Of a stretch of DNA of 64,000 bases, positions 14,702 through 64,000 are shown in pieces. Position 1 is the first letter of the stretch. The number at the start of each line of letters is the position of its first letter. The notes beneath the pieces were generated by a model. The model worked only from the letters and a program-made list of their open reading frames with translations, did not search any database and was not told the origin of the DNA. A program made the position numbers and the translations under genes. The DNA lies in NCBI RefSeq assembly GCF_027944115.1, contig NZ_JAPJZI010000001.1, positions 2,976,001 to 3,040,000 on the forward strand. Direction: 5' to 3'. This DNA comes from Hoeflea prorocentri. Its GTDB lineage: Bacteria > Pseudomonadota > Alphaproteobacteria > Rhizobiales > Rhizobiaceae.

Positions 14702-14792
14702 ACTCCCATTCAATAGTAAATCAGCCGCCTAATATGCTGATATTCTTACGGATTTTTCTGCGACGATTTGCGCATACCGTTCGTTGTACCGT
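14702..14792. other. guaA-3'-end-like attachment site with TACCGT pair (candidate attR)
   Basis: ACTCCCATTCAAT at 14702-14714 resembles the complement of a guaA 3' end (GTIEWE followed by stop). A pair TACCGT-N6-TACCGT lies at 14775-14792, 73 bases on. The same pair and spacing occurs at 22077-22168, with the shared flank CTGCGAC before the pair. I read this as an attachment core plus integrase arm sites; no integrase is present. Confidence 0.5.
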
Positions 14793-15098
14793 CAAATTCT
14801 CAAGTTGTTGAAAAATCTTGGTTTAATCTGCGCCCTCAATTGCGCGACCCGATTTAGTCATGTTGATCGGACTCAAATCGATGGTTCGACACCAATGCTG
14901 TCTGCACGGCATTTTCCAAGCGGTGACATAATGATCCAATTTGGCCGTGTTGCTTTTCAGTTGCAGCAGGCTACAGGGCGTCTCAACTGCCTCGAACAAC
15001 AGCATTTGAGTGCTGCCACGGGTTTGAACCCAGCCGTCAACTAGTCGACGCTCATTCGATGACAGACATTTCATTAAACAAAGAGGCGACTAAAAAAT
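14793..15098. other. Intergenic region before the porin stop
   Basis: About 300 bases without a convincing gene. A minus-strand open frame at 14823-15074 has no recognisable domain or good start. Confidence 0.3.
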
Positions 15099-16487
15099 CT
15101 AAAATGTCGAACCAACGGAAAAGCCTACCACTATGGCGTCGTCAATGCTGGATTTGCCGTCTGGGTTGAGAATGAACTGCACATCTGGTTGTACATAAAA
15201 TGCCGGAAGGATCTGGGCGCGATAATTGACTTCAAGGATGGTTTCCGCAGTCTGGCCGGCAAGATGCTTGCTGAATACACCCATGGCCGCAATGAAGGAG
15301 AGGCTGTCTTCGGGACGGCTGTTGAAGGGCCCGACATAACTCAAGCCTCCTGCAGCCATGAACATGATTTCATTAAGATCGGGCGGTGCGTAGCTTAGGG
15401 CCAGCCAGGCCCATAGTCCCCGTGAGTAGCTGTCGTCCATGCTGTAGAGCATCTGCTCGCCCATCGCGTAGATGCCCCATGTGTTTCGCTCACTGGCTCC
15501 CGTCTGCAGATTGGTCAGACGCTCGGTGTCGTAATAGCCGCCAACCTTGTAGGTGCCCGGCAATCCCGTTTGTGACGCCCTATTACCGACATTCACACCA
15601 ACCTCCGAAATTGCAAGTACACCTGACCCGTCCGGTGCTCCAAACTCGACGCCATGCTCGCTGGGATCTCCGAGTGAGGGATAAACCAGATATGCGCCGG
15701 TCTGTGCGTACCAGCTATTTCCGGGCTTCACCTTCACTCGGCCACCCCAGACAGCATTTGGATAGGTTGGAAAGTTAATGCTACTAGCCCCGGCAATCGG
15801 GTTGCCGCAGATACCCTGATTAACCGACGTACAGGCAGTGGCAAGCGTGGCAAAGTCTTCGCCAGTTATGATCCGACCACCAACCAATTCCGTGGTATTG
15901 TTGAACAATTGTGAACCAACAGCGAGATGAACGAGACGCGTCGAAGGTCCGGGCTCTCCTGAAGAAGACAATTGGACAGGAAAGTGGTTTCCGACGTTGT
16001 TTGGCGTCAGGCCGATGTTTCCCGTACCCAGGTTGAACGAGGCCGTGAAATAAGTCCGTTGCTCTATGTCAAGCAGGCGCGAGAAATCCACGAACGTCCC
16101 GAAGTTCCAACTACCGATCCAGCTTGCCCCGTCCGGTGTCTGTCCACCGATCGGATTTGCAGCAAACTGGCCAGAGTAAGCTCCAGAAAATGAGATGCCC
16201 ATCAATTCCAGATCGTCTCGCAGGCCGCCCCAGCTTCCAAGCACATTGGGAGCTTGCGGATTACCCGAAAACCATCCCCAGCCCTGATCAGGCGTCCAAG
16301 TCCCCGGATGCAACCAGGGTGTCGCTGTTTCCGGTCCTGCCGTGTCCCATCTTGCAGGATTAAACTGGCTAGCCTTGATCCAGGGATTGATATCCGCCAA
16401 AGAAGCGGTCACCCCTGCCAACAATCCTGTGATAACCAGTGTTGAGGCGAAGGCTCGCAAACGAAGTTTCTGTAGATGTGCCGACAT
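15099..16487 (-). CDS. OprB-type carbohydrate-selective porin
   Basis: Outer-membrane beta-barrel of the OprB family. Chosen start at 16487 gives 462 residues with a standard signal peptide (LRAFASTLVITGLLAGVTASLA); the open frame extends upstream to 16721 without a better start. Mature N-terminus carries aromatic/Gly-rich barrel segments, with LRDDLELMGISFSGAYSGQFAANPIGG and YDTERLTNLQTG characteristic of OprB, and it ends in Phe (VGFSVGSTF), the usual outer-membrane C-terminal signal. It follows the CxxCH protein by about 250 bases and probably lets substrate or product cross the outer membrane for the laccase-type enzyme encoded upstream. Confidence 0.88.
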   Translation of the reverse strand: MSAHLQKLRLRAFASTLVITGLLAGVTASLADINPWIKASQFNPARWDTAGPETATPWLHPGTWTPDQGWGWFSGNPQAPNVLGSWGGLRDDLELMGISFSGAYSGQFAANPIGGQTPDGASWIGSWNFGTFVDFSRLLDIEQRTYFTASFNLGTGNIGLTPNNVGNHFPVQLSSSGEPGPSTRLVHLAVGSQLFNNTTELVGGRIITGEDFATLATACTSVNQGICGNPIAGASSINFPTYPNAVWGGRVKVKPGNSWYAQTGAYLVYPSLGDPSEHGVEFGAPDGSGVLAISEVGVNVGNRASQTGLPGTYKVGGYYDTERLTNLQTGASERNTWGIYAMGEQMLYSMDDSYSRGLWAWLALSYAPPDLNEIMFMAAGGLSYVGPFNSRPEDSLSFIAAMGVFSKHLAGQTAETILEVNYRAQILPAFYVQPDVQFILNPDGKSSIDDAIVVGFSVGSTF

Positions 16488-16743
16488 TGGATTGCGCTGG
16501 CCCTTCATTTGCCCAGCGACCTGCCTTGCTAAACTCCGTGGCGGGGCCGTGGGCGATTTGTGGTTCATGAACCGGACGTCGCTAGCCTGGGCAAGCGGCG
16601 CCGCGAGTGGGTTTTGAATGGTGTTTCCAACGCTGTATTCAACACGCTGCAGAGTTCTGACGTTTGAATGCCTCAAACCGCTTATCCTTCCCGTCCGGCA
16701 ACGCCTCAAGCGTTTCAGCATCCCGCTCGTCCCAAAATGGTTT

Positions 16744-18273
16744 CTAATCGCTTCTCGGGGTCAGGGGCGCACCGCCGGGTCCGGGGGTTCCAAACGTGAG
16801 AACGTTGTCGACATAAGCGCGCAACGCATCCGCCCAGTCCGTCAACGTCTTACATATCTTCGGCTTGTCTGCGACGTCGACCGAGCAACGCAGCGACACA
16901 AAGTTGTTCAGGCTCATTGATAGCTGCAGCGAAAAGTCCGACGAGTACAGCTGACTATCGCTGAACACCGCCCCGGCGGAAACGTTGCGATAGAACGTCA
17001 TACGAAAGTCCTGATGATCACCGGCTGTTTTCGAATCGTCCAGGCCCAGAATAGAGCTAAGGGTCGAGAACTCCGGCAAGATAGCAACCGGTGGAAAACC
17101 AGCGGTCTGATGGCACCCGATGCAAGAGGCCTGAGGATTGTCCACTGGACCTGCCAGACGGCCACCGAAACCGAGGTGATCGAGTGTCACGGGAGCAGTC
17201 GTCAGTTCCTTAAGCGCTTCCTCGTCAATCCACTGTTCGGTTAACTTCTCCTGGCTGCAATTTCCGTTGGCGTCACACGTTTGCGAATAGGTGACTTTAG
17301 GGCTGTTTCCCCATTGAAGGCCGAGTGGCACCATACGGTCCCAGACCGTTGCCCCCGTCTGGGTGCCGTCATAGGCAAACGTTCCAAAAAGCCAGCCGGT
17401 AACGCTGCGATCATCGCGAACGGCAACATCGATCTGCAACAGGCGGACGGTTTGAACCTTCCTCTCATAACGTGAAATCGGCCCCTGATTGCGGACAGCC
17501 GGTTCTGTCTCGACAAATATATCCGCTTCCCACTCCAAGGCATCCTTCATAGTTGGAAGCTCAGATTCTTCGATTGTCGAAAACAGAAGTTTGATGATGT
17601 AGGAACCGTCGGCGAAGTTGTTCAATCCGGCAGGATCAGGATTGAGTGCCGACGGGTCGGGTGAATTGGGATCACAATAAACCTGACCGATACCGAAAGC
17701 GCCTCTGTCGTTGTAGTAGGCTCCTGACCAGGTATCGACTGATCTGGTCTGCAGTGTCGATAAGGTCTTCGGATTGGAATCGAATTCGTGAGTCAGGCCA
17801 TGGACGAACTCGCGACCGTCGGTACCGGGCCAGTCGGCTGCGACTTCGGAGTTCCAATCCATCCAGGGCATCGAGTACCAAGATCGGACTTTGTTGTCTT
17901 CAACATAAAAGTCGACCTCGACATTGCCCTCAAGACCATAGTTCAGGAGTTCAACTAAGTAGGTTTTCGGGTCGGTAGGGGCGCCATTTTCGAATGGTAT
18001 CGCCATCCATGGATAGTCTTCCTTGGGCGGCAGTTTGTCGGGGTAGTCCTGGCTTAGCTTGAAAACTCGGCCGGTATAATCGGCCGGCGGATCGCCACCC
18101 TCCCCTTGCAGGTAATAATCTTTAAATTCACCCCGCACGCACCCCTGTTTCGCGTGCGCGTTGCGTTCATCATCTGACGAAGCCAACGCACTGACAGGCG
18201 CAGCAATCATGACAAGAGAGACAACCGGGAAACAAAGACATAATGATCGTTTGAGGATGTTGGTCAATCTCAT
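16744..18273 (-). CDS. Exported protein with one haem-binding CxxCH motif, function unknown
   Basis: 509 residues. A signal peptide ends near residue 31 (VSALA). One CIGCH at 384-388 predicts covalent c-type haem; the rest is not a standard cytochrome fold I recognise. There are additional cysteines at 45, 200, 333 and 339 that could form disulphides. It lies 18 bases downstream of the Tat-exported multicopper oxidase gene, so the two are co-expressed and both act in the periplasm. A role as an electron partner of the oxidase is plausible but only inferred. Confidence 0.7.
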   Translation of the reverse strand: MRLTNILKRSLCLCFPVVSLVMIAAPVSALASSDDERNAHAKQGCVRGEFKDYYLQGEGGDPPADYTGRVFKLSQDYPDKLPPKEDYPWMAIPFENGAPTDPKTYLVELLNYGLEGNVEVDFYVEDNKVRSWYSMPWMDWNSEVAADWPGTDGREFVHGLTHEFDSNPKTLSTLQTRSVDTWSGAYYNDRGAFGIGQVYCDPNSPDPSALNPDPAGLNNFADGSYIIKLLFSTIEESELPTMKDALEWEADIFVETEPAVRNQGPISRYERKVQTVRLLQIDVAVRDDRSVTGWLFGTFAYDGTQTGATVWDRMVPLGLQWGNSPKVTYSQTCDANGNCSQEKLTEQWIDEEALKELTTAPVTLDHLGFGGRLAGPVDNPQASCIGCHQTAGFPPVAILPEFSTLSSILGLDDSKTAGDHQDFRMTFYRNVSAGAVFSDSQLYSSDFSLQLSMSLNNFVSLRCSVDVADKPKICKTLTDWADALRAYVDNVLTFGTPGPGGAPLTPRSD

Positions 18274-18291
18274 GGCTATCGTTTCCTCTTT

Positions 18292-19983
18292 CTATGAGTG
18301 ATCATGCCTGGACGCCGGATCGACGATCAGGAAATTTTGCATCATGCCCGTGTCTTCATGCGGCAAGATATGGCAGTGATAGACTGCCTTGCCGGTGTAC
18401 TGCTTGAAGCGCATGCGGACGACGACGGTTTCATTTAAGGGGACCCAGATCGTGTCTTGGATCAGGCCCGGCGGCTGCTTGATGCCGCCTATCGATACCA
18501 CCTCGAATGCATTGACATGGATATGGAAGGGATGGCCTTCGGCACCGCCGTGATGCGCGTCCTTCAGAGACAAATGCCATTCTTCAACGCCGTCCAAATC
18601 GACGACGGTCGGCACTTCCATTTCACTGTAGATCGCATTGTTGATGAGGTAATCGCCACCAACCACCTTGTTGATGATCCCAGGAACGCTTCCAGTGAAG
18701 ACGATCTGGCGGACGCGACTTACCTCCTCGGGTTTGATCAATGGATATTCGCGGTTGGGGACTGGCAGTTCCCCTGGCAGCGCCATGTCTTGGGCCGGAC
18801 CCTTCACCTCGATTTCCGCAATCACCTTGGCCGCACTGTCAAGAAACTGCCGATCGTGAGGGATTTGGCGTATCTGATAGACGCCGGGCGTCGCGTTTGC
18901 CTTGATCAAAAATTCGGCCCGGTTGGCTGGCGCGAGGAGAAGCTGTCCATCGGTTTCGCTGTAGCCGGTCGCCGGAATGCTACGCACCTGTGGGAAATTC
19001 ACACCGTCCATGGCGAGCAGATGGACCTCATGCCCGTCGACGACGATCGGCATGAGATTGTCCGAACTGCCATTGAGCATTAAAAAACGAACCACCTCAC
19101 CGGGTGCAAGAGTGAAGCGCTGCGGTGTCAGTTGTGCAGGGACCGGGCTAGTATCCTCGTTGGTGCGGTCGTTGTGCGTTTCTCTGAAAAACGGCTCACC
19201 ATTGAGAAGATAGTACCGGAGCTTGTAATCGCCGGTGGTGAAGCCACCGTTCAGGGATGTCCTCTCGCCATTAATGGTGACGTATCCACCATAGGTCTGC
19301 CAGATGGCGTTTTGAACCGGCTCATAGGTCCACAAATCCGGGTCATCCTCACTCGGAAACAGGCCAATGTCCTGAATTACCAGCGGGATTGAACGTGCAG
19401 CTTTGATTTCCGGAACTTCGTCGAGTGCGCCCTTTACGATGAGCGGTCCCGCCATTCCGCTTACCGCCTGAACCGCCGTCGCACCATGTTTGTGCGGATG
19501 ATACCAGTTGAGCCCGGGCGGGTGATCTTCGGGAATTTCGAAGACATAGTCGAGATGTTCACCGGGCGGGATTTTGATCATCGGTGCGAGCGGATCGGAG
19601 GTCCCAAGCGGAACGAACAGATGCGGCAGCACATCCATGCCGTGAAGATGAAGGGCGGTATGGTCGAGGCCATGCGGCACATTGTGGTCGCCGTCCCAAG
19701 CGGATGAATCATATGGTGGCAACGAATTTTTCATTCGAATTCGTAGCGTCGATCCCGGCGTTACTGTGATCGTCGGGCCAGGAATCTGATCATTGTATGC
19801 CCTCAGCCTCACGCGATTGCCGTCAAGGACCATCTCCTTTATGGCGCATTCGAGCTCAATCCAATCGTCGCCGCTTAGGGGCGCTGTTTCCCCTTCCTCG
19901 TTAGCAAATGAAGAAGTTCCCGCGACACTAGCCACTGCTGCGAGTGAACCGCCGAGGACTTCCCGACGTGTTACCCTTTCCAT
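18292..19983 (-). CDS. Tat-exported multicopper oxidase (laccase/CueO/CotA-like)
   Basis: 563 residues with a twin-arginine leader (TRREVLGGSLAAVASVA). Copper sites are complete: HLHG at 112-115, HPHKH at 162-166, HPFHIH near residue 490, and HCHILPHEDTGMM at 536-548 holding the Cys and Met of the type 1 centre. These enzymes oxidise phenols, bilirubin-like compounds or metal ions and reduce oxygen to water in the periplasm. Genes for a CxxCH protein and OprB porin follow on the same strand; an AraC-type regulator is divergent. Substrate cannot be told from sequence. No Met-rich CueO-type insert is evident, so copper detoxification is less likely. Confidence 0.92.
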   Translation of the reverse strand: MERVTRREVLGGSLAAVASVAGTSSFANEEGETAPLSGDDWIELECAIKEMVLDGNRVRLRAYNDQIPGPTITVTPGSTLRIRMKNSLPPYDSSAWDGDHNVPHGLDHTALHLHGMDVLPHLFVPLGTSDPLAPMIKIPPGEHLDYVFEIPEDHPPGLNWYHPHKHGATAVQAVSGMAGPLIVKGALDEVPEIKAARSIPLVIQDIGLFPSEDDPDLWTYEPVQNAIWQTYGGYVTINGERTSLNGGFTTGDYKLRYYLLNGEPFFRETHNDRTNEDTSPVPAQLTPQRFTLAPGEVVRFLMLNGSSDNLMPIVVDGHEVHLLAMDGVNFPQVRSIPATGYSETDGQLLLAPANRAEFLIKANATPGVYQIRQIPHDRQFLDSAAKVIAEIEVKGPAQDMALPGELPVPNREYPLIKPEEVSRVRQIVFTGSVPGIINKVVGGDYLINNAIYSEMEVPTVVDLDGVEEWHLSLKDAHHGGAEGHPFHIHVNAFEVVSIGGIKQPPGLIQDTIWVPLNETVVVRMRFKQYTGKAVYHCHILPHEDTGMMQNFLIVDPASRHDHS

Positions 19984-20585
19984 CTCAATTGCCCCTCAAC
20001 AGATGCTTCCCCAACGGCGGGAATTGCTGCTTTAAGCTGTATTCCAGTCTTCGGTCGGCCAAAAAAGCAAAACGGCTCAGACCAAAGACGGTCGCCCTTC
20101 CTTAGGTTATCTTGCACGCTTGCCGGCTTTGTGCGCCGCGATTCGCTCCGAAAACCTATTGATAAAAATCCAGAGTTTATGCGTTAAGCGCAAGGATCAA
20201 TCGCTGGACGACAGTTTCAATTTTCATAGGTCAATCGTATCACCGGACCCTACAAATCCCCTGTCTACGACGTCACAGCAAAGCCAAGATACCATCTGCC
20301 GTACCGACCAGCTCATCGTCGGCAAGACCGAGGGCAGGCATCGCAATCATCCAATGACGTTCAATGCTCAATTGGCTTCTTCTTACTCGACGTTTGTCAC
20401 TTCCGGTTTACCTCGATCCCGCACATGTGGCCGTGAGGAATTCGGCGTGCTTCAATTCCTCCTTTCTGTCGGTGGCGATCAGCGTCGTAAAGGCCGCTTG
20501 TTGTACAACTTAATGTGGGAAAACGGATCTTTGTAACTTACGAGAGCTGCCATCTGGGTCGTTGTCCGGTAAAATCAAACGCACC
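19984..20585. other. Divergent intergenic region between oxidase and AraC regulator
   Basis: About 600 bases. It must hold the promoters of both genes. An open frame at 20120-20536 (+, 138 codons) has no recognisable domain, no good ribosome site and low-complexity composition, so I do not call it a gene. Confidence 0.4.
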
Positions 20586-21617
20586 ATGGGACAAGCTGAC
20601 CTGATTCCTGCTTTCAAATTCGATGGCGCATCGTTGGGTAGCAGCCATTGCTTTGACGCATGGCGGGAGACCATTCGATGTGTTTATGACGTAGCGCCTC
20701 TGGAGGAGGCTGCAACCGAATTCGAAAATGTGGATGGCTGGCTAGTCAACTCTCTTATATTCTCCGAAGTTTCTTTCTCAAGACAATCGTTCCGACATCA
20801 CGCCCGCCACCTTCAAGATGCCAACTACTTGAGTGTACAAATTTACAGGTCAGGGGGAGCAAGGGGTGTCCTCGCGGATCAATCCTGGATTATGAAACCG
20901 GGGGATGTTCATATCCATGATTTTTCGCGAGAGTTTCGCTCAGTAACTGAGAAATCTGTGGTTTCAGGTGTAACAATCCCACATGCGGATGTCGGTTATG
21001 ATCCCGCAACACAACCGGCACACATGATGTTCTGCGGTGACTCTGCCATTGGTAGTGTATTGAGAGAGAGCTTTTACGCGATTCAGCGCCGCTTGCCAGA
21101 ACTCAACAAAGAGGAAGCCGCGGTCTTGGCGAACGGATTTTGCGGACTGGTACGCGGCGTTATCAGTCCTCAAAAGACAAAAGAGCTATCCCGAGCGAAA
21201 GCATTTTCTGCTGAACGGCGCGTTGCCATGCGATCTTATCTGGACAAGCATCTATCGGATCCCGGCCTGGGTATCCACAATCTTTTGAATACGTTTGGTG
21301 TTTCGCGACCATCAATCTATCGCGACTTCGGCGATGTTGGTGGAGTCACGGCTTACATTAATGAGCGTCGTCTCAATCGAGCCTTTCATCAGCTTATTTC
21401 AGCAAACCCCTCACACGGACGCGTCAAGGAAATTGCCCACCATATCGGGTTTAAGGACACATCATATTTCAATAAGCTCTTCCGCAAACGCTTCGGCATC
21501 ACGCCTAGAGCCGCAATGACAGGTCGGCAAATTGTGAGGGCATATTCGCAGCAGTCAAATCAGATTGCCTCCTCACCCAATACTTCTCAGCTAAACGACT
21601 GGTTCAATAGTATTTGA
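20586..21617 (+). CDS. AraC-family transcriptional regulator
   Basis: 343 residues from the ATG at 20586 (a TTG at 20562 would add eight). The N-terminal 200 residues are an AraC-binding-like sensor of the AraC_binding_2 type (FSRQSFRHHARHL, MKPGDVHIHDFSREF). The C-terminal DNA-binding domain has two helix-turn-helix units: LGIHNLLNTFGVSRPSIYRDF and VKEIAHHIGFKDTSYFNKLFRKRFGITPRAA. It is divergent from the multicopper oxidase cluster and is the likely activator. Ligand unknown. Confidence 0.88.
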   Translation: MGQADLIPAFKFDGASLGSSHCFDAWRETIRCVYDVAPLEEAATEFENVDGWLVNSLIFSEVSFSRQSFRHHARHLQDANYLSVQIYRSGGARGVLADQSWIMKPGDVHIHDFSREFRSVTEKSVVSGVTIPHADVGYDPATQPAHMMFCGDSAIGSVLRESFYAIQRRLPELNKEEAAVLANGFCGLVRGVISPQKTKELSRAKAFSAERRVAMRSYLDKHLSDPGLGIHNLLNTFGVSRPSIYRDFGDVGGVTAYINERRLNRAFHQLISANPSHGRVKEIAHHIGFKDTSYFNKLFRKRFGITPRAAMTGRQIVRAYSQQSNQIASSPNTSQLNDWFNSI

Positions 21618-21854
21618 TCACTGATTGTATCGCAACTTCAGCTTTTCAGATCTGGATCATGTGAACAACCTCCAGAGAACTCACCACTGGAACAGTTCCC
21701 GGTTTGAAAGGTCGATCAACTGAATGAATCGATGGCCGGACCCGAACGGGTCGTGACTCCAATCCCCACCTTCCTGGTCTTCGGCATTTTCCTTTCAGCG
21801 TCTTCCGGTGCCGTCATCCGAACGCCGCCTACCAGCGGCAAGCTCCTTGAATGC

Positions 21855-22068
21855 AGCGCTGAGGGCGTTCGCGGTTTGTAAAGTCCCCTCACCTCGCGTT
21901 GAAACGCTCCAGCGCTCCGCTACGGCTCTGCGCGCTCGTCGCTCGTGAAGTGCCACTGGCACGTCACATTGAAGCGCATTGCGATTCAGCCGCTCCAGCG
22001 CTTCGCTATGGCTTCGCGCGTTCGTCGCTCCAAAAGGTCCACCGGACCTTTTGACCGGCTACGCCGAC
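21855..22068. repeat. Intergenic hairpin-repeat block (ACC-loop elements), copy 1
   Basis: Composite of short palindromic units. 21899-21978 matches 63289-63368 with about five differences in 80 bases. One unit, AAAAGGTCC-ACC-GGACCTTTT at 22032-22052, is a perfect 9-base stem with an ACC loop. The same type of unit occurs downstream of guaA (63195-63213 region). These are REP-like, non-coding and probably dispersed in the genome. Confidence 0.75.
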
Positions 22069-22168
22069 CGCTCCTCACTCCCATTTCAATGGTTAACCGG
22101 TTGGTTAAGCTTCTGATTTTACGACATATTATACTGCGACACTTCGCGCGTACCGTCAGAAATACCGT
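22069..22168. other. guaA-3'-end-like attachment site with TACCGT pair (second candidate attR)
   Basis: CGCTCCTCACTCCCA at 22069-22083 is identical over 15 bases to 63382-63396, which spans the guaA stop codon. TACCGT occurs at 22151-22156 and 22163-22168, six bases apart and 74 bases from the core, as at 14.7 kb. The pair lies on the side towards guaA, that is, inside a presumed 22-63 kb island. Confidence 0.55.
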
Positions 22169-22590
22169 CGATATTCTAAACCTATGAAATTGCTAGCGTA
22201 TTTTCTTCACACTACCAATGAAGACATGTGGAAAATCGTCAAAGGCACGCCCAGGCCTTTGAAACGGCATCGGGCAGGCATCACAGGGTCAATTCAAGGG
22301 CTCGCAGCCACCGGGAGCAGCACTCGATAACAGTATCCGTCCAATAGTTCGGAGGGTAGGATTCAACCGGTCGATACCCCCTTCCGTCGAGGATAGCGGC
22401 GCGTTGCGCCCCACTAGGTCACCAGCACATGCATTGCTTCTTTCCCATGCGGATGTTGGCGAGTTCGTTAGCCCGACCTTCCACTCGGGATGTCGAGACC
22501 GCTTTGCGTTACGCACCGGATCTGGCAACGCGTAGAGTTCACAACGCTGCCAACTCGCCTAAACGATTATTTACGACTTTCTGACAGCTC
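22169..22590. other. Intergenic region inside the candidate island edge
   Basis: No convincing gene. A minus-strand open frame at 22289-22528 has no recognised domain. No integrase or excisionase was found here. Confidence 0.35.
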
Positions 22591-22596
22591 TTGCGT

Positions 22597-23109: not shown

Positions 23110-23222
23110 ACCGGAAGGGATTGAACAAACCCTGTCGCTTTCAATCGCCGAAAACACTACCTTTAGTAGCTGAAACTGGGCTGAACAGCTAATGTCAGAG
23201 ATACCGTAAACTATCTAGGCTG

Positions 23223-55786: not shown

Positions 55787-55831
55787 GTTTGCGATGTTTA
55801 ACCACTAATGTAAATGCAATTGAATGAAAGA

Positions 55832-55884
55832 AAAAACGATTCTAGCTTCTTGTCAAGATATCAATCGTTTTTAATGGTATACAA
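55832..55884. promoter_or_regulatory. Candidate operators between GntR and asparaginase genes
   Basis: AAAAACGATT (55832-55841) and AATCGTTTTT (55863-55872) are a perfect inverted repeat across 21 bases. TGGTATACAA at 55875-55884 fits the general TnGTnTACnA pattern of FCD-type GntR operators. Both lie in the 187-base divergent region. Confidence 0.45.
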
Positions 55885-55973
55885 ATACGATCTTGAAAAT
55901 GAAAAATATGTCGGTACCATTCAGAACCAATTGGTAAATGTCGCTGTTGCGGGCGCGCTAAGAAGAAGTCTTT

Positions 55974-56975
55974 ATGCAAAAATTACTTGTCGTTCACACC
56001 GGTGGCACCATCGGAATGACAAGGCACTCAGGTGCCTGGGTTCCGACGGATGAAGGCCGCGCGCTGGTGGAAACCAGTGTTGCGCGCTTCAGCGATCAGT
56101 CGGGAATCGACGTGGCGTTTCGCGTCGCAACTCGACAATTCGACAGCAGTCAGGCCCGGCCCGAATATTGGGTTGCCCTGGCTAGGGAAATCAGAGGTCT
56201 TGCGTCCGACCATTGTGGCGTTGTTCTGATCCATGGAACCGACACGCTGTCATATGCCGCTGCCATGCTGTCCTTTCTGCTTATTGGATTGGACAAGCCG
56301 CTTGTTGTCACCGGGTCTCAGAGACCATTAAGCCTCGAAGGCTCCGACGCGGGCCGTAATTTGCAGGACGCTCTGACCGTTGTGACGGAACTCGAACCAG
56401 GCGAAATCATGGTGTCTTTTGGTGGGCTTGTTCTGGTTGCCGAGCGCGTGCGCAAAACCTCTTCCAAGTCTGATCAAGCATTCTCCACGCCAGGAACCCG
56501 AACCGTTGGCAAAGTGTCGGGGGGTGTCTTTCAACGCTTTGATAAACGGTCCAGCCTATCTGGCCGCGCACCGCTGAAAATCGACGCCAACAAGAGACCA
56601 CGTTTGACCAGCCTTGTCGCCAGCCCCATTCTCGATCTGCCGACCATGGATGGCATTGCTGCGAGCAAGCCATCAGGTCTAATCCTTGAGCTGTATGGAC
56701 TGGGAACCATACCGGTCCACGAGCGCGGTATGCTGGAAAAGCTGCGACGAATGACGGCATCCGGAATGCGCATTTTAGCGATTTCGCAGTGTTGCGATGG
56801 CGGGTTGGAATTGTCGACATATCCGTCAGGAAGAGCACTGCTTGATCAGGGTGTAATCGACGGCAAGACGCTTACCCGATCAGCAGCGGTTGCCAAACTG
56901 TGGTGCGCCTTGGCCGAGGCAGACGAGGCGCCGCCGCATCTCATCGCGTCGCGCTGGCGAGGCGAAATCGATTAG
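55974..56975 (+). CDS. L-asparaginase (AnsA/AnsB family)
   Basis: 333 residues with both catalytic motifs: HTGGTIGM at 8-15 with nucleophilic Thr12, and HGTDTLSYAA at 87-96. No signal peptide, so cytoplasmic (type I-like). Hydrolyses asparagine, and some relatives hydrolyse glutamine or other amides. Divergent from the regulator of the peptide importer and followed by a deformylase-like gene, so it probably works on amino acids released from imported peptides. Confidence 0.9.
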   Translation: MQKLLVVHTGGTIGMTRHSGAWVPTDEGRALVETSVARFSDQSGIDVAFRVATRQFDSSQARPEYWVALAREIRGLASDHCGVVLIHGTDTLSYAAAMLSFLLIGLDKPLVVTGSQRPLSLEGSDAGRNLQDALTVVTELEPGEIMVSFGGLVLVAERVRKTSSKSDQAFSTPGTRTVGKVSGGVFQRFDKRSSLSGRAPLKIDANKRPRLTSLVASPILDLPTMDGIAASKPSGLILELYGLGTIPVHERGMLEKLRRMTASGMRILAISQCCDGGLELSTYPSGRALLDQGVIDGKTLTRSAAVAKLWCALAEADEAPPHLIASRWRGEID

Positions 56976-57010
56976 TTCTGGGAAGACCCGCAAAGGAGAC
57001 TTTAAAGCAT

Positions 57011-57586
57011 ATGTCGATCCTGAAGATTGCACGTATGGGGCACCCCATTTTGGCAGCGGTCGCAGAACCGGTCCAAGATCCGACCTCACACGCCATAAAG
57101 GCGCTCGCGAACGATATGATCGAAACACTGTATGACACCGCCGGCAACGGTTTGGCGGCGACACAGGTTCATGTGCCGCAAAGAGTCATCATCTTCTTCC
57201 AGACGAACGAGGAATGGTCCTTCGATCGGCTGGACGAACCGCCAGCCCGCCGGTTCAGGCCGCCGGCGGATAATCGGCTCTCGGTCCCGCTTACCTTACT
57301 GGTCAATCCCGAGTATGAGCCGGTCGGCGATGACACAGTCGAAGGCTACGAAGGTTGTCTCTCCATCCCGGGACTTGCGGGCAAGGTACGTCGTTACCGT
57401 ACGATCCGCTATCGAGGGATAACGCCTGATGGACAACTCGTCGAACGTACTGCCGAGGGCGCTCATGCACAGGTCGTACAGCACGAGTGCGACCACCTCG
57501 ATGGCATTCTCTACCCGGAGCGGATGACGGACTTGAAAGACCTGACATTCATGACCGAATTGAAGCTGCGCCAAGGCGAAGCCTGA
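57011..57586 (+). CDS. Peptide deformylase-family protein (accessory copy)
   Basis: 191 residues from the ATG at 57011, after AAAGGAGA. The three deformylase motifs are intact: GNGLAATQ at 45-52, EGCLS at 114-118 with the metal Cys116, and QHECDH at 157-162 with the HExxH histidines and Glu. An extra 25 or so residues (about 66-92) separate motif 1 from the NPEY strand, unlike housekeeping Def. It lies 35 bases after asparaginase. Not next to fmt or a ribosomal locus, so likely a specialised copy acting on imported formyl-peptides or another N-formyl compound. Confidence 0.85.
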   Translation: MSILKIARMGHPILAAVAEPVQDPTSHAIKALANDMIETLYDTAGNGLAATQVHVPQRVIIFFQTNEEWSFDRLDEPPARRFRPPADNRLSVPLTLLVNPEYEPVGDDTVEGYEGCLSIPGLAGKVRRYRTIRYRGITPDGQLVERTAEGAHAQVVQHECDHLDGILYPERMTDLKDLTFMTELKLRQGEA

Positions 57587-57637
57587 GGTTGGCAACGGTT
57601 GAAAACCGGCCTGCTGGAGATGCGCTTGGTACTGATG

Positions 57638-57695
57638 TGTCTGACGTCAGACAATCATGGTGATCAGGTAGCGCCTGGCTCTATTGTGTCAGACA
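57638..57695. promoter_or_regulatory. Palindrome TGTCTGACGTCAGACA and half-copy in a convergent gap
   Basis: A perfect 16-base palindrome at 57638-57653, and TGTCAGACA at 57687-57695. They look like regulator sites, but both flanking genes converge here, so there is no obvious promoter to control. Confidence 0.4.
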
Positions 57696-57796
57696 TACGG
57701 TCGATCCACCGCGCGGGCCCTTATCGTCGCCCTATATGCGCCGCCCGTCACTGGTCGTCTTCAACAGTGCCTGACGGTAACAGGGCTGAAAAATGA

Positions 57797-58552
57797 TCAT
57801 CTTACTTCGACGCCCGCTTTTGAAAGCGCAGTTGCAAAGGCCTCGTCGGGCGCGCGATCGCTGACCAAAACGTCGATCTCATCGAGCATGCAAAGACGAT
57901 AGGTCGCGGTCCGCCCGACCTTGGCTGTCGTGGCAACGATAACGGTATCGCGCGCGTTGCGTCGCATGGCGAGCGCGATTTGTGCCTCGTCGAAATTGGC
58001 GTCCATCGCCCCGGTCTCGGCATTAAGTGCCGCGACGGTCAAAATCGCATGATCGGCCTGGAAGCTGCCGATCTGCTCGACGGCCATGGTGCCCAGCGTC
58101 TGGCCATTGCCGGCACTGAACTGGCCGCCGAGAAGAAACACGGACGAGCCGTTGTGCGCACGGTCAAAGGTGAGCGCGATATGGATCGAGTTGGTAATCA
58201 CGGTCAGCGGCCCTTTCTCGGCCAGTGCCGCCGCGCAGGCCAACGTGGTCGAGCCAGTGTCGATGAAAATGGTGTCTCCAGGCTCGATCATGTCGGTTAA
58301 CTTACGGGCGATCAGCATTTTTCCATCAGCCTCCTCGCCCATCCGTTCTTCGAAAGAAGCTTCGGTGAACAGTCGGGCGCGCTTGGCCCCTCCATGGACC
58401 TTTTGCAACCGCCCCGCGCCATTCAGGAAAGTCAGATCACGGCGTATGGTTTCGGCCGACACGTCGAACAGCGTTGCAAGTTGCTCTACGCTCACCCGTC
58501 CATGGCGGTTGACGGTGTCGAGAATGTCTTCATGGCGTGTCTTAAGCGTCAT
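57797..58552 (-). CDS. glpR: DeoR-family regulator, GlpR-like
   Basis: 251 residues. N-terminal DeoR helix-turn-helix (RHEDILDTVNRHGRVSVEQLATLFDVSAETIRRDLTFLNGAGRLQKVHGGA) and sugar-phosphate sensor domain with FIDTGSTT and AVEQIGSFQADHAILTVAAL. GlpR members respond to glycerol-3-phosphate. Divergent from the glycerol-3-phosphate dehydrogenase and glycerol kinase genes, which makes it the probable repressor. Confidence 0.85.
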   Translation of the reverse strand: MTLKTRHEDILDTVNRHGRVSVEQLATLFDVSAETIRRDLTFLNGAGRLQKVHGGAKRARLFTEASFEERMGEEADGKMLIARKLTDMIEPGDTIFIDTGSTTLACAAALAEKGPLTVITNSIHIALTFDRAHNGSSVFLLGGQFSAGNGQTLGTMAVEQIGSFQADHAILTVAALNAETGAMDANFDEAQIALAMRRNARDTVIVATTAKVGRTATYRLCMLDEIDVLVSDRAPDEAFATALSKAGVEVR

Positions 58553-58563
58553 CGTAGGCTCCT

Positions 58564-58582
58564 TCGCTTAAAGGTTAAGCGA
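58564..58582. promoter_or_regulatory. Perfect inverted repeat upstream of glpR
   Basis: TCGCTTAA-AGG-TTAAGCGA, 8-base arms and 3-base spacer, 11 bases before the glpR start. It is well placed to be an autoregulatory and divergent operator. Confidence 0.55.
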
Positions 58583-58715
58583 GCGCGCCGCGCCCGTGTC
58601 AACAAAATTTGGACAAAACGGGCTTTTTTCGGGCAAAAAAATTCGGAATTATTGACCGAGCGGACATTTGGTGTCACTGCTTGGGCTGGTATGCAACAAA
58701 TTCGATTGCCAACAC

Positions 58716-60176
58716 ATGATGCCAGCACAGCAAAGCACCCTCTCAGATGTATACGATGTCGTTATCGTCGGCGGCGGTGTGGTTGGATGCGCAATCGCGC
58801 GCCGGATGACGCTGGAAGGCTGGCGTGTCGTGCTGACCGAAAAGGCGCCAGACATTCTCGACGGCGCCTCTAAAGGCAACAGCGCCATTCTGCATACGGG
58901 CTTTGATGCGCCACCGGGCTCGCTTGAAGCCAGGTGTATCGCCGAAGGTTACGATGAATTTCGTTCCATCCAAGAAAGGCTCGGTTTACCGCTGGTCGAG
59001 ACCGGAGCGCTGGTTCTTGCATGGACCGAACAGGAACTGGCCAGGTTGGATGGGTTGATCGAGCAGGCACACGCCAATGGTGTTGACGATGTGGCGCGAC
59101 TGGATGCACACCAGGCCCGTAATATGGAACCGGAACTGTCCGAGGGTGTTATGGGTGGATTTCGGGTGCCGGGCGAACACCTAATCGATCCGTGGTCGAC
59201 ACCTTATGCGTATCTGCTCCAGGCGGTGGAAAATGGCGCAACTGTGTTACGCCAATGCCGCGTATCAGACGGAGAGTTTGACGGTGCACGCTGGCAGCTC
59301 GAAACCAGTCAGGGCTGTCTTCACGCTCGTCTTGTCATCAATGCCGCTGGGCTCTACGGCGACCGGCTCGATGAAACTCTGATCGGGCACAGCGATTTCA
59401 CGATCCGGCCGCGTAAAGGCCAATTCATTGTTTTTGACAAACCCGCGGCACGCCTTACAAGACATATCCTCCTCCCCGTGCCAACCGAAAAGACCAAAGG
59501 GATTGTGGTCTGCCGAACGGTGTTCGGCAACGTGTTGGTCGGACCGACCGCCGAAGAGCAGGAGGACCGTTCGTTCGCAACGGTTGATGCGCAAGCATTG
59601 CAGGACCTGCGCCAAGCTGGCGAACGCATCCTGCCGGCACTTGCCGGAGAAGATGTAACGGCCTTCTATGCCGGATTGAGGCCGGCCACCGAGCACAAGG
59701 ATTATCAGGTCCGCACGGATAAGATGCGCAATTATGTTACGGTAGGCGGCATCCGCTCAACGGGCCTGAGCGCCGCGCTGGGCCTGGCTCGTCATGTGCA
59801 CCAGCTCTGCGAGCAGATCGTTGGCCCATCCGAACCGATGGCTGATCCGGCTTGGCCCAAGGTCGGCAATATCTCCGAATATGCGCCACGCGACTGGCAG
59901 GCGCCGGGTAACGAAGGCATCGTCTGCCATTGCGAACTGGTCACGCGGCGTGAGATCGAAAAGGCGCTGGACGGCCCGCTGGGTGCCCGCAGCCTGGCTG
60001 GGTTAAAGCGCCGAACCCGTGTAACGATGGGGCGCTGCCAGGGGTTTTACTGCACGGCGCAACTGGCGGCGATGACCGCCGGGCGTTTCGCGGAACCGAT
60101 TGCGACGGGTGAAAGTCCACCGCCGTCCATGCCCTCACATATGCGCGATGCAACGGATCTGACCGATGTCCGGTGA
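58716..60176 (+). CDS. FAD-dependent glycerol-3-phosphate dehydrogenase, GlpA-like with [2Fe-2S] domain
   Basis: About 486 residues from ATG 58716 (58719 equally possible; the frame reaches back to 58668). DAO-type FAD motif VVIVGGGVVGCAIARRM at the start and GLRPATEHKDYQV near the end of the FAD domain. The C-terminal BFD-like domain has CHC (VCHCELVTRREIE) and MGRCQGFYC, four cysteines for a [2Fe-2S] cluster. Oxidises glycerol-3-phosphate and passes electrons on. No GlpC or membrane-anchor gene is present. It overlaps the next gene by 11 bases. Confidence 0.87.
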   Translation: MMPAQQSTLSDVYDVVIVGGGVVGCAIARRMTLEGWRVVLTEKAPDILDGASKGNSAILHTGFDAPPGSLEARCIAEGYDEFRSIQERLGLPLVETGALVLAWTEQELARLDGLIEQAHANGVDDVARLDAHQARNMEPELSEGVMGGFRVPGEHLIDPWSTPYAYLLQAVENGATVLRQCRVSDGEFDGARWQLETSQGCLHARLVINAAGLYGDRLDETLIGHSDFTIRPRKGQFIVFDKPAARLTRHILLPVPTEKTKGIVVCRTVFGNVLVGPTAEEQEDRSFATVDAQALQDLRQAGERILPALAGEDVTAFYAGLRPATEHKDYQVRTDKMRNYVTVGGIRSTGLSAALGLARHVHQLCEQIVGPSEPMADPAWPKVGNISEYAPRDWQAPGNEGIVCHCELVTRREIEKALDGPLGARSLAGLKRRTRVTMGRCQGFYCTAQLAAMTAGRFAEPIATGESPPPSMPSHMRDATDLTDVR

Positions 60177-61413
60177 GCACTTGGATCATGCGGACATCGT
60201 GATCGTCGGCGCTGGACCTGCCGGACTTTCCGCCGCCGTCCGGCTACGTCGCCGGGGCTTGGGACGAGTTGTCGTTCTCGACCGCGAGCCATCGGCCGGC
60301 GGTATACCGCGTCATTGCGGGCATTATCCTTTCGGCGTTCGTGAATTCGGCCGGCTGATGAAAGGGCCTGCCTATGCCCGGCGCAATGTCGCTTATACGC
60401 GGGCCGCTGGTGTTGAGGTCATAACCGGTGCGACTGTCACCGCGTTGGGGGAAGGACCGGTGCTGACGCTGTCGATGGCGGACGGTGTCCGTTCGATCAG
60501 CGCCAGCCGGGTGCTGCTCAGCACCGGCGTGCGCGAGACATCACGGGCACAGCGCATGATCGGTGGCACCAAACCGGCCGGGGTGATTTCGACCGGCGCG
60601 CTGCAGGGGTTGGTCCATCTGCAATCTCTGCGGCCGTTCTGCCGTCCCGTCGTTCTTGGCACTGAGCTTGTCTCGTTTTCGGCGTTGATGACTTGCCGCC
60701 ATTTGGGGATTCGGCCGGTCGCCATGATCGAACCCAACGGGATGACGACAGCGCGGGCTCCAGCCGGTATTTTCCCTCGGCTTCTCGGCATTCCTCTGCT
60801 GCTCGGCACGCAGATTGAGGAGATTCGTGGCCGTGACCGGGTCGAGGCGGTGGTCGTGCGCCGGCGTAGCGGGTCGACACAGACCATTGAAGCCGATGGT
60901 GTGATCGTTTCAGGCCAATTCCGGCCCGAAGCCGCACTGCTGAAGAACAGCCATTTGAGGATCGATCCAGGGACCGGCGGGCCGCAAGTGGACCAATATG
61001 GCCGGTGTTCCGACCCCAATTATTTTGCTGCCGGCAACATGTTGCATCCTGTGGAGACAGCTGGATGGTGCTGGCGCGAAGGGCAAGCCGTCGCGGACGC
61101 GATTGCCGACAGCCTTGAAGGACGCATTCCATTGCCTGAAGGCGCCCTCAGGCTCGCCATTGAGCCCGATCCGTTGAAATATGTTGTCCCTCAGGTGATC
61201 GTGCCCGGTGAGGGAACTGCGCCGTTGGGGCGGTTGCAAATTCGCCTCTCAAAGCCGGCGCGGGGACGGCTGGTGCTCACAGCCGCTAATGGTGACACCA
61301 CCATGCTGGATCGCGTTGACAATCGTCCGGAGCGACGGATCATCGTGCCGATCAAAAGATTGAAAGCCGTGGATGCCGGAGAGGCGCGGATTGCAATCGA
61401 GGAAGGTCGCTGA
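60166..61413 (+). CDS. FAD/NAD(P)-dependent oxidoreductase of a GlpA-partner type
   Basis: 415 residues. FAD motif IVIVGAGPAGLSAAVRLRRRGLG, second dinucleotide region around LGTELVSFSALMTCRHLGI and a C-terminal GNMLHPVETAGWCWREGQAVADAIAD that binds FAD, as in HcnB/OoxA or NoxA-like subunits. A 90-residue tail resembles DUF1667-type additions. In other bacteria this gene sits between GlpA-like and GlpK-like genes, as here, and probably relays electrons. Its stop overlaps the kinase start by one base. Confidence 0.82.
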   Translation: MSGEHLDHADIVIVGAGPAGLSAAVRLRRRGLGRVVVLDREPSAGGIPRHCGHYPFGVREFGRLMKGPAYARRNVAYTRAAGVEVITGATVTALGEGPVLTLSMADGVRSISASRVLLSTGVRETSRAQRMIGGTKPAGVISTGALQGLVHLQSLRPFCRPVVLGTELVSFSALMTCRHLGIRPVAMIEPNGMTTARAPAGIFPRLLGIPLLLGTQIEEIRGRDRVEAVVVRRRSGSTQTIEADGVIVSGQFRPEAALLKNSHLRIDPGTGGPQVDQYGRCSDPNYFAAGNMLHPVETAGWCWREGQAVADAIADSLEGRIPLPEGALRLAIEPDPLKYVVPQVIVPGEGTAPLGRLQIRLSKPARGRLVLTAANGDTTMLDRVDNRPERRIIVPIKRLKAVDAGEARIAIEEGR

Positions 61414-62864
61414 TGCGCATTCTTGCGGTCGACCAGGGTACGACGAGCACCCGCGGTATCGTCTTCGACCGTGATGGCCGGTCGCAAACCGTTTTCTACC
61501 GTGAGCACCGACAATCTTATCCCCGGTCGGGTTGGGTCGAACATGACCCTGACGAACTGTTGGGCAATGTCCGCGCGTGTTTCGAGGCGGCTTTGGCATC
61601 GAGCGGGGTCATGGCAGCCGGAATAGCCAACCAGGGTGAGAGCTGTCTGGCCTGGGACGCTGAAGATGGCGCGCCTGTCGGCCCAGTCATCGTTTGGCAG
61701 GACGGTCGCACAGCAGATGATTTGGCCCGTCTGAAGGCCGAAGGCGCCGAAGCGATGACGCTGGAACGCGCAGGCCTGCCACTTGATTCCTATTTTTCGG
61801 CCTCCAAGCTGGGTTGGATCGCGCGGAACAATGCGCGGGCCAAAGAGCTGGCCGCTTTGGGGCGCCTGCGACTGGGAACCACCGATGCCTTCTTTCGCGA
61901 CCGTTTGACCGGCTGCTTCGAGACCGATCTTACCACCGCCTCGCGCACATCGCTGCTCAACCTCGAAGCTTGCCAATGGGACGAAGAGTTGTGTGCGCTG
62001 TTTGGCGTGCCGGTGGACGCTCTGCCATCGATCACGCCGACCTCAGGGGCACTCGGTACCGCTGCATTCGACGGCGGAATAACGCCACTGACGGCGAGTA
62101 TTGTTGACCAGCAGGCGGCGCTCTACGGTCATGGCTGCCGGCGACCCGGGGACGTCAAGATAACCTTTGGTACCGGTGCCTTCGCGCTTACGGTGACCTC
62201 GACCGGCAAGCCGGCATCGCGACACGGCCTGTTGCCGACCATCGCCTGGCAAGAGGCGGGCGAACGCCCCGTCTATGCGCTCGATGGCGGGGTGTATACG
62301 GTCTCGGCTGCAGTCAACTGGGCCCGCTCGATCGGTCTGTTCGATGATTTTGACGAGATCGCCGTTTTTGACGGCCCGGCGGCCGCTGAACGTGGGCTCT
62401 ATTTTGTGCCGGCACTGGCCGGCCTTGCCTGCCCGCATTGGGATCGCGATGCGCGGGGAAGCTGGATGGGCCTTTCACTGGATACGACCAAGCAGGATAT
62501 GGTGCGCGCGATTCTGGAAGGCATCGCCTTCCGCACAGCGGAGGTGGTCGAAGCGATCGACGCAGTCCAGCCGATAGCCGGGCCGATCACCATCGATGGC
62601 GGCATGAGTGCCAATACTTACTTCGCGCAGTTTTTGAGCGATACGCTGGCGATCCCGTTGCGGGTTTCTGACGAGCCCGAACTATCCGCGTTAGGGGTCG
62701 GGATGCTTGCCGCCGAGGCATCAGGCATGATCATCGACCGACCGCAAAAGGGCGCTATGGTCGCGCCGCGTCCGCAACCTGTGGCATGGCGAAAAGGGTT
62801 TTTGTCGGCACGACAGGCGGTGCAGGCGTTCGGCGCAGCTTTTGCTGCCGAAGCCACGTCATGA
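61413..62864 (+). CDS. glpK: Glycerol kinase (FGGY family)
   Basis: 483 residues, length and motifs of glycerol kinase: VDQGTTSTRGIVFDRDG, WVEHDPDELL, VIVWQDGRTADD with the catalytic Asp region (IVDQQAALYGHG follows), FGTGAFALTVTSTG for phosphate, and AILEGIAFRTAEVVEAI near the end. Phosphorylates glycerol for the dehydrogenase encoded upstream. The typical NQR at the sugar site reads NQGES, so polyol specificity may be somewhat changed. Confidence 0.87.
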   Translation: MRILAVDQGTTSTRGIVFDRDGRSQTVFYREHRQSYPRSGWVEHDPDELLGNVRACFEAALASSGVMAAGIANQGESCLAWDAEDGAPVGPVIVWQDGRTADDLARLKAEGAEAMTLERAGLPLDSYFSASKLGWIARNNARAKELAALGRLRLGTTDAFFRDRLTGCFETDLTTASRTSLLNLEACQWDEELCALFGVPVDALPSITPTSGALGTAAFDGGITPLTASIVDQQAALYGHGCRRPGDVKITFGTGAFALTVTSTGKPASRHGLLPTIAWQEAGERPVYALDGGVYTVSAAVNWARSIGLFDDFDEIAVFDGPAAAERGLYFVPALAGLACPHWDRDARGSWMGLSLDTTKQDMVRAILEGIAFRTAEVVEAIDAVQPIAGPITIDGGMSANTYFAQFLSDTLAIPLRVSDEPELSALGVGMLAAEASGMIIDRPQKGAMVAPRPQPVAWRKGFLSARQAVQAFGAAFAAEATS

Positions 62865-63164
62865 TGATCCCGTATGCAGATCGCCCTGATGTGACTGGCA
62901 AACAGGTTTGTCTGCAATAATCTGGCCAAGTAAGGATCATGCCGTGACTGGGCCCCCGCAGCCATCGACCATGCAAGCAGCGCCTCGCCGGTCGTGCCGG
63001 TCTGCAAATGCGTCGAACCACATTCCGCTGCTCCATGGAGATTTGCAGACTGATGCGGCCGTGCTTTTGAACCAGATAACTTATGGCCCGGGCGCCCTCC
63101 CAGTGGCTCAACGGTCGAGCGGGGCATCTTCGATGCGCCATTGGTCGCCGGATCAGTCTCCCGC
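62865..63164. other. Degenerate stretch between glpK and the guaA-flanking repeats
   Basis: About 300 bases with several open frames but none resembles a protein family. An integrase would be expected near guaA in a guaA-targeted island; none is visible. Confidence 0.35.
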
Positions 63165-63387
63165 CTCATCGCGGCTTCGTCGCTTCAAAAAGGTCTATCG
63201 GACCTTTTCGCTGGTTACGCTCACCACCCAGGCCCCTTGAGCGCAGCGCTCAGGGCGTTCGCTGCTCTTGAAGTGGCACTTACCTCGAGTTGAAACGCTC
63301 CAGCGCTCCGCTATGGCTCTGCGCGCTCGTCGCTCGCGAAGTGCCACCGGCACTTCACTTTGAAGCGCGTTGCGCTTCAAACGCTCC
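63165..63387. repeat. Intergenic hairpin-repeat block (ACC-loop elements), copy 2, downstream of guaA
   Basis: 63289-63368 repeats 21899-21978 closely. GAAGTGCC-ACC-GGCACTTC at 63338-63356 is a perfect 8-base stem with an ACC loop, and AAAGGTC / GGACCTTT nearby is of the same class. These directly abut the guaA stop codon. Confidence 0.75.
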
Positions 63388-64000
63388 TCACTCCCACTCG
63401 ATCGTGCCGGGGGGTTTTGAGGTGACGTCGTAGACGACGCGGTTGATGCCGCGGACTTCGTTGATGATGCGGGTCGCGGCGCGGCTGAGGAATTCCATGT
63501 CGTAGTGGTAGAAATCGGCCGTCATGCCGTCGACGGATGTCACCGCCCGCAGGGCGCAGACATATTCATAGGTACGTCCATCCCCCATGACGCCGACTGT
63601 CTGAACCGGCAGAAGCACGGCGAAGGCCTGCCAGATCGTATCGTAGAGGCCGGCTGTGCGGATTTCGTCGAGATAGATGGCGTCCGCCTCGCGCAGGATG
63701 TCGAGCTTCTCGCGCGTCACGCCGCCCGGACAACGAATGGCAAGGCCCGGACCGGGAAACGGATGGCGGCCGATAAAGCTGTCCGGAAGGCCGAGTTCGC
63801 GTCCGAGGGCGCGCACCTCGTCCTTGAAAAGTTCGCGCAACGGCTCGACCAGTTGCATGTTCATGCGTTCCGGCAGACCGCCGACATTGTGGTGTGACTT
63901 GATGGTGACGGATGGTCCACCCGTGAACGAGACGCTTTCAATCACATCGGGATAGAGCGTTCCCTGAGCCAGGAAATCCGCACCGCCGATCTTTCTTGCC
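63388..64000 (-). CDS. guaA: GMP synthase (glutamine-hydrolysing), C-terminal part; start outside window
   Basis: Last 203 or so residues, ending in the conserved PPGTIEWE. Visible are [46 protein letters not shown] and [12 protein letters not shown], typical of the PP-ATPase and dimerisation domains. Converts XMP to GMP. The gene is cut at the right window edge. Its 3' end is a known target for integration of genomic islands, which matters for the 22-63 kb segment. Confidence 0.95.

Follow-up and report, generated by a model that had tools for sequence, protein, structure and literature searches.

How did a succession of catabolic gene blocks come to lie one behind another beside the 3' end of guaA, the gene for GMP synthase, in Hoeflea prorocentri, with no integrase gene among them? 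The question is raised by a stretch of 64,000 nucleotides of contig NZ_JAPJZI010000001.1 (positions 2,976,001 to 3,040,000), hereafter the window; position 1 of the window is contig position 2,976,001, and negative positions lie to the left of it. The window genome (G000; 5.04 Mb in two contigs) was compared with its relatives G001 to G007, the eight together representing the window's genus, and with G101, a metagenome-assembled genome (MAG) of the Rhodovibrionaceae, which belongs to another order. We read the region as the tandem accretion of integrase-less islands that resemble cis-mobilizable elements (CIMEs), a type of accretion already known, although a long array of this type at guaA appears to be new. 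In its full form, to which we give a probability of roughly 0.8, this reading holds that a P4-type tyrosine recombinase built the array at the 3' end of guaA and that the integrases were later lost.

The target gene is read on the minus strand with its stop codon at 63388; followed past the window it encodes a protein of 520 amino acids (aa), and there is one guaA-type match in each of the eight genomes of the genus. A preliminary description of this DNA had proposed two islands in tandem, marked by 15 bases shared with the guaA end and by pairs of TACCGT. The shared string, CGCTCCTCACTCCCA, does occur at 22069 and 63382, with no third copy in the surrounding 310 kb examined, but six of its bases (CGCTCC) belong to the end of a palindromic module described below, and the part owed to guaA is TCACTCCCA. 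A looser guaA-like core, ACTCCCATTCAAT, stands at 14702. The description of the pairs was accurate: TACCGT-N6-TACCGT occurs 73 bp (14775) and 74 bp (22151) to the right of ACTCCCA, each time preceded by CTGCGAC (Table 1). With one mismatch allowed, shuffled sequence gave a mean of 0.08 matches and two or more in none of 100 shuffles; in exact form the pair is found three times in the whole genome, against no occurrence of the reversed control. All three pairs lie on the plus strand, at most 68 kb from the guaA stop and each beside a guaA-like core. The third is outside the window, at G000:C1:2971428 (window -4572), with ACTCCCA 73 bp to its left. There are accordingly three well-preserved internal junctions where two had been counted, and the edge of the array that had been placed at 14.7 kb is no edge, the segment to its left being itself an island of 19.3 kb. 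A comparison proposed as a check, for guaA joined directly to the DNA left of 14.7 kb, could therefore not succeed. The aligned parts of the three modules are 68-79% identical, and in the arm pair of Island II the first heptamer differs by one base.

Two genomes of the genus that are close relatives of each other, G002 and G005, reveal how such a junction arises. The site is empty in G002, where guaA is followed directly by neighbour sequence; the same neighbour sequence is present in G005 (739 of 810 bases identical), in which 9.2 kb have been inserted with a copy of TCCCACTC on either side. Read on the opposite strand, this 8-bp overlap is GAGTGGGA, which has been published as the guaA site of the genomic island GIsul2, and the pair of genomes thus exhibits insertion at GAGTGGGA in the guaA 3' end, as expected of a guaA-specific island. 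Judged by eye, the open reading frames (ORFs) of the insert look like a toxin-antitoxin pair, an RND efflux pump and a two-component system, and no PF00589 (Phage_integrase) match was found in it. Since the core falls within the final codons of guaA, the end of the gene and its stop codon come from each inserted element, and after the core either TAG or TGA is found in different genomes.

An integrase with which these sites are associated was found outside the genus. An exact search of 397 genomes of the order for the heptamer pair TACCGTCA-N4-TACCGTCA gave 17 sites, distributed over 15 genomes (control: 2). Four of the sites adjoin guaA (L153, L156, L158 and L167) and one adjoins an integrase gene (L161); a guaA-like core stands to the left in five (L155, L157, L164, L166 and L165, the last being that of the window genome), and L162 has a degenerate core. 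Pairs spread widely away from guaA-like cores, which would have told against the preliminary description, were not observed in the window genome (three pairs of three beside cores); in the order, six of the 17 have no core. Of the six, L169 has a tRNA-Phe gene and an integrase of 30% identity next to it, and L168 a tRNA-Val gene; L163 is on the same contig as L169 (G503:C1, 66 kb apart), L160 on the same contig as L168 (G816:C1), and L154 and L159 have neither a tRNA gene nor a tRNA-side pair in the same genome. The heptamer pair looks like the arm site of a wider P4-type integrase family for which guaA is one target, and the tRNA-side sites suggest that the arm heptamer is common to P4-type integrases with other targets. 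A search for integrase genes beside such sites near guaA, which had been proposed as a check, was successful: a P4-type integrase adjoins guaA in G334, a genome of another family, and in G490, G645 and G775. The copy in G334 is interrupted by a stop; the other three are 72-79% identical to it, and in all three genomes the distal pair lies beside a guaA-like core. Counting the degenerate site, ten genomes of the order other than the window's have a site of the guaA type, and eight of them have an integrase match of 56-81%, whole or in pieces; the exceptions are G086 (at best 38% over 55 aa, otherwise 29-30%) and G174 (no match). The element in G490, of about 68 kb, for which 41 ORFs were run against Pfam, carries PF13356 (Arm-DNA-bind) and PF00589 together with TraG-, TrbI- and CagX-type conjugation proteins, a VirB11-type ATPase domain and a replication initiator. 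From this association TACCGTC is most likely the arm site of the guaA integrase family and would be bound by the guaA integrase.

The region could then have been assembled as follows. Separate circular elements would have integrated in succession at the 8-bp core within the final guaA codons, through a P4-type tyrosine recombinase with TACCGTC arm sites, of which the distal P arm would carry two and the P' arm, near the integrase start, several. Each newcomer would have entered at guaA and shifted the older elements outward; guaA would have stayed intact and acquired a new stop codon, and a P'-core-P arrangement would have remained at every internal junction. The integrase genes would subsequently have been lost from the P' side, with the cores, the P arms and the catabolic cargo retained. 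At the level of sequence we document the junctions, one empty/filled pair, the association of arm sites with integrase genes, the absence of the cognate integrase and the integrase scraps at two junctions of relatives; the order of events and the loss of the integrase from every island are what we infer. The remaining junctions could presumably recombine if a guaA-specific conjugative element supplied its integrase.

The array probably reaches beyond the window, as indicated by profiles of the P arm (19 sites, of which 3 in G000) and of the P' arm (7 sites, of which 1 in G000). In the window genome the P' arm is only partial at -4.7 kb and at 14.5 kb (14524-14813 matches G006:C51, 46578-46867, at 74% identity), and no profile match to it was found beside guaA itself (63180..63387). 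Further left, a P' remnant spans -27486 to -27378 (E 3e-26), and P remnants of weaker score lie at -35912 (E 2e-4) and -44723 (E 0.003), which we take for probable decayed junctions. From guaA to the nearest block conserved between G000 and G002 there are 222 kb in the former and 53.6 kb in the latter, so that the place is a hotspot in general and the whole stretch need not be array. When the DNA left of guaA in G000 was compared with a first set of stretches from relatives, the matches of at least 150 bp consisted of junction modules with their edges (163-295 bp) and, besides these, weak ones of 66-69% at 27.3-28.0 kb.

Similar arrays are found in the relatives. By sequence comparison, guaA insertions or modules occur in seven of the eight genomes of the genus, G002 being empty at guaA itself. 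Tandem junctions number three well-preserved ones plus guaA in G000, three plus guaA in G006:C51 (within 61 kb) and four plus guaA in G101:C32. In oriented coordinates, G007:C58 has modules at 63061, 145510 (partial) and 155470, with guaA at 182234; part of a P' arm adjoins guaA in G001; and in G003 a module lies near C121:12240, the contig of which presumably joins the guaA contig, as the start of the one and the end of the other both carry the palindromic module. In G101 there are nine well-scored modules and a weak one, four of them left of guaA on C32 and the others on separate contigs, and a single module occurs in G847, another genome of that order, in which two of 61 genomes matched. 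A scan for CTGCGAC-N10-TACCGT-N6-TACCGT with one mismatch gave 11 matches in four of 101 relatives, all of the window's genus (control: 4 matches in 4 genomes), and a longer exact form found seven stretches in four assemblies of an 84,980-genome collection, from which records near the window genome may be excluded: Hoeflea poritis E7-10 (three on one contig, one on another), Nitratireductor sp. XY-223, the Rhizobiaceae MAG PL25b_bin.41 and the Rhodovibrionaceae MAG PL25b_bin.61. The two MAGs share the sample label PL25b, so misbinning is possible; guaA on G101:C32 is only 73% identical to that of the window. Across the class, two of 385 genomes matched (G000 and G334) against one control match, one of the two places in G334 (L148) not being at guaA, and no stretch of a viral contig collection had the arm motif. 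A looser pattern, TACCGTCNNNNNTACCGTC with one mismatch, was unspecific (16 control matches in one genome), and exact matches and profiles were used instead.

What became of the integrase? A six-frame scan of G000 with PF00589 (E up to 0.001) gave seven matches, none between 2.735 and 3.045 Mb, and the cognate integrase has no match anywhere in this genome. Together with the junctions and the empty and filled sites, the scan bears out the original picture of tandem islands at guaA, each with its arm pair just inside the distal end and its integrase gone. In G001-G007 and G101, near-full-length matches to the cognate integrase are of 24-32% identity, and partial ones reach 39% (G003) and 38% (G002). 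An integrase acting in trans from elsewhere in the array genomes was considered and rejected: 42 of the 81 PF00589 matches in G000-G007 and G101 were taken as loci and clustered (two had no usable ORF), XerC- and XerD-like groups proved to be shared, and the cognate search gave only these matches of 24-39% and some scraps. One scrap, in G004, corresponds to aa 7-55 at 53% identity and lies just beyond the P' arm next to guaA; broken integrase pieces also adjoin the P' arm in G006:C17. As these scraps stand beside P' arms, at least some islands once had an integrase and then lost it, and the islands of G000 would likewise have lost theirs. Like CIMEs, the islands are flanked in tandem and in the same orientation by attachment (att) sites of one specificity, and within the arrays of G000-G007 and G101 PF00589 detects no integrase gene, the scraps of G004 and G006:C17 being the only traces. 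Integrative and conjugative elements (ICEs) differ from them: among the 39 window ORFs there is neither an integrase nor a conjugation gene, both of which are present in the G490 element.

Several observations weigh against the accretion of once autonomous islands. In the array stretches of G001, G003-G007 and G101, as in that of G000, the negative result with PF00589 covers the tyrosine type, serine recombinases not having been searched for across the arrays. No integrase scraps were found at the junctions of G000, and scraps occur at only two junctions, both in relatives. The significance of the arm E-values is partly by construction, as the profiles were also trained on G000 sites, the left end of the G000 array was sought by profile and not located, and the TACCGTCA pair, which occurs at tRNA genes too, is not exclusive to guaA. 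In G101 the P arm is present by profile at nine of nine well-scored junctions and TACCGTC on the left side at none of nine (one with only 275 bp examinable), and the left sides of the eight junctions compared and guaA are unrelated except for one pair. Simple loss on the integrase side does not predict this uniformity; integrase-side deletion accounts for the data of the genus and less well for G101.

Among other readings, the one that survives best is compatible with accretion and concerns the present state of the array: the integrases would be long lost, the junctions decaying and nothing moving any more, with only the cargo under selection. The junction fragments at -27.4, -35.9 and -44.7 kb, the partial P' arms and the lack of a cognate integrase in G000 all fit such a relic; the good preservation of core and P arm at three G000 junctions does not, nor does the island order, which was not found in any relative's stretch compared. 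We regard it as a tentative possibility, held at distinctly less than even odds.

It is unlikely, in our judgement, that the islands were never autonomous, that is, that they are cassettes of core, P arm and cargo (7-80 kb), captured and rearranged into an integron-like array by an integrase that visiting guaA conjugative elements would have provided in trans. The asymmetry of the arms argues for it: in 21 well-scored internal modules the P-arm heptamers are exact in 33 of 42 cases, whereas TACCGTC occurs within 620 bp on the left side in four of the 21 (one with only 275 bp examinable), and G101 is more extreme still. The absence of PF00589 from the arrays and from the insert of G005 fits it equally, as does the cargo of Island II, of which 15101-21617 recurs in G006:C33 (about 302.4-308.8 kb; 88% identical over 4.9 kb and 76% over 1.5 kb) with no P-arm match near the copy, so that, from the sequence, this cargo appears both inside and outside islands. 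Against it stand the N-terminal integrase scraps that abut P' arms in G004 and G006:C17 and indicate that some islands had their own integrase, and the present lack of a cognate integrase in the array genomes. The asymmetry in G101 has also led us to consider, with similar doubt, a more specific variant, in which the guaA 3' end of the genus, and separately that of a Rhodovibrionaceae lineage, would serve as an integron-like dock for multi-operon cassettes of 7-80 kb with a core and one arm, loaded or rearranged only through the integrase of a visiting guaA conjugative element, the palindromic module travelling with the attachment site. With regard to an integron integrase (IntI), no PF00589 protein was found near the array.

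Two further explanations seem to us very improbable. If the modules had spread by homologous recombination or duplication of one module, their likeness over 163-295 bp would be expected, but the G002/G005 pair displays a precise insertion with an 8-bp overlap at guaA, the aligned parts of the G000 modules share 68-79% identity, all three have one orientation beside guaA-like cores, and the pattern scan of G000 gave no module without a core. Similarly, TACCGT pairs serving as regulator binding sites unconnected with integration would suit the GntR-family regulator gene (12890-13894) near one island end, but hardly their fixed distance of 73-74 bp from guaA-like cores or their occurrence, in other families, in the interval from guaA to a P4-type integrase gene or beside tRNA genes. 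A tRNA gene as integration target was dismissed, there being no tRNA in the window, and XerCD-type (dif) integration was set aside, as core and arms appear to fit the layout of the guaA integrase.

Many junctions have a modular palindromic sequence between the P' arm and the core. Within 1.43 Mb of fetched DNA it was located in 12 places, always at guaA or at a junction, the one at -36 kb being a remnant; in the whole of G000 there are five matches in three places, namely guaA, the 22-kb junction and the -36-kb remnant. Eleven genomes scanned for it gave 18 matches in five genomes, all of the window's genus. Its confinement to such sites has a counter-example in G004:C107, where by profile neither core nor arm was found in the 3-kb locus; a match of 28 bases in G007:C11 is weak. 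The module may travel as part of attP, or it may be a terminator acquired at guaA.

Comparable systems are known. The CIMEs around ICESt1 are reported (Pavlovic et al. 2004) to be att-flanked, to lack integrase and transfer genes and to stand in tandem with elements that have them. The Hoeflea array differs in that no autonomous neighbour was found in it. In Dehalococcoides (PMC3146451), islands at ssrA are also arranged in tandem within 100 kb, carry metabolic cargo and have the 3' end of one gene directly repeated at their borders; 16 of them keep the integration module and 15 are without it, and cis-mobilizable elements and accretion were suggested. The likeness extends to tandem islands at one gene end, many without an integration module; the difference is that the serine recombinase DsiB acts at ssrA, whereas at guaA we infer a P4-type tyrosine recombinase, of which the array genomes examined hold no intact copy. 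GIsul2 lies at the same gene and the same 8-bp site, and its integrase excises and integrates the CR2-sul2 unit experimentally (PMC9376610); by the same source it carries its integrase and is reported in gamma-proteobacteria. In Mesorhizobium, guaA ICEs and the IntG of tripartite ICEs provide alphaproteobacterial parallels, in which the integrase directs integration at guaA and alpha regions lack integrase genes (PMC8627217); these are conjugative, however, and the parts of that account available to us describe no guaA cargo arrays. We found no description of integrase-less guaA arrays in the literature, mostly open literature, in which the TACCGTC sites themselves were not searched for.

The array would offer an attachment-site anatomy (core, P arm, P' arm and TACCGTC) for a guaA-specific P4-type integrase family of Alphaproteobacteria, a means of delimiting islands whose mobility genes are gone, and, with its relatives, a natural series for tracing the loss of integrases. 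It leads to the prediction that the guaA integrase of a conjugative relative should excise or rearrange the catabolic islands in a genome without its own. If the reading is true, the array illustrates how acquired collections of metabolic genes are built up and fixed, with the landing sites kept and the recombinase lost.

Table 1. Features of the guaA-side array of Hoeflea prorocentri (window coordinates unless a contig is named)
Feature	Position	Strand	Basis and remarks
guaA (GMP synthase) 3' end, integration target	63388..64000	-	Pfam GMP_synt_C, E 7e-44
Crossover core TCCCACTC (GAGTGGGA on guaA strand)	63392..63399		8-bp overlap of empty (G002) and filled (G005) site
Attachment module of Island III	22067..22204	+	core ACTCCCA 22077, CTGCGAC 22134, arm pair TACCGTCAGAAATACCGTC 22151
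Attachment module of Island II	14691..14828	+	core ACTCCCATTC 14702, CTGCGAC 14758, arm pair TACCGTTCGTTGTACCGTC 14775
Third attachment module, left boundary of Island I	G000:C1:2971344-2971481	+	pattern and profile
P' arm (integrase-side) of Island I, partly decayed	14381..14661	+	nhmmer E 1e-62, copy itself in model; TACCGTC 14568
Palindromic module, downstream side of guaA	63180..63387		sequence comparison
Palindromic module left of 22077 core	21839..22076		21839-21996 85% identical to 63229-63387
Island I, right part	1..14701		whole island -4656 to 14701, 19.3 kb; cores and Pfam
Island II, 7.4 kb	14702..22076		OprB porin, 509-aa CIGCH protein, multicopper oxidase, AraC regulator (Pfam; CxxCH scan)
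Island III, 41.3 kb	22077..63399		bounded by cores at 22077 and 63392; Pfam

By Pfam, the 39 distinct window ORFs scanned, guaA included, are concerned with transport, sugar and amino-acid catabolism and regulation. The part of Island I within the window encodes a dehydratase, two iron-containing alcohol dehydrogenases, parts of an ABC transporter and a GntR/FCD regulator. Island III combines ABC uptake systems with a class II aldolase, aminotransferases, Gfo/Idh/MocA and enolase-superfamily proteins, an M42 peptidase, an asparaginase, an FGGY kinase, a UPF0261 protein and regulators of the GntR and DeoR types. No mobility, conjugation or mobilization gene was found among these 39, a scan that covers the larger ORFs within the window and, of Island I, only its right part.

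Three minor observations may be added. The 509-aa protein of Island II (16744-18273), encoded between the OprB porin and multicopper oxidase genes, has one CIGCH motif and no Pfam match. A protein of 670 aa at L126 (G101:C6) has an N terminus resembling a membrane segment and, towards its C terminus, matches Phage_integrase weakly (36 bits). Finally, an IS3-type transposase fragment, recognized by eye from the translation, lies at about 14.2 kb, to the left of the P' arm of Island I.

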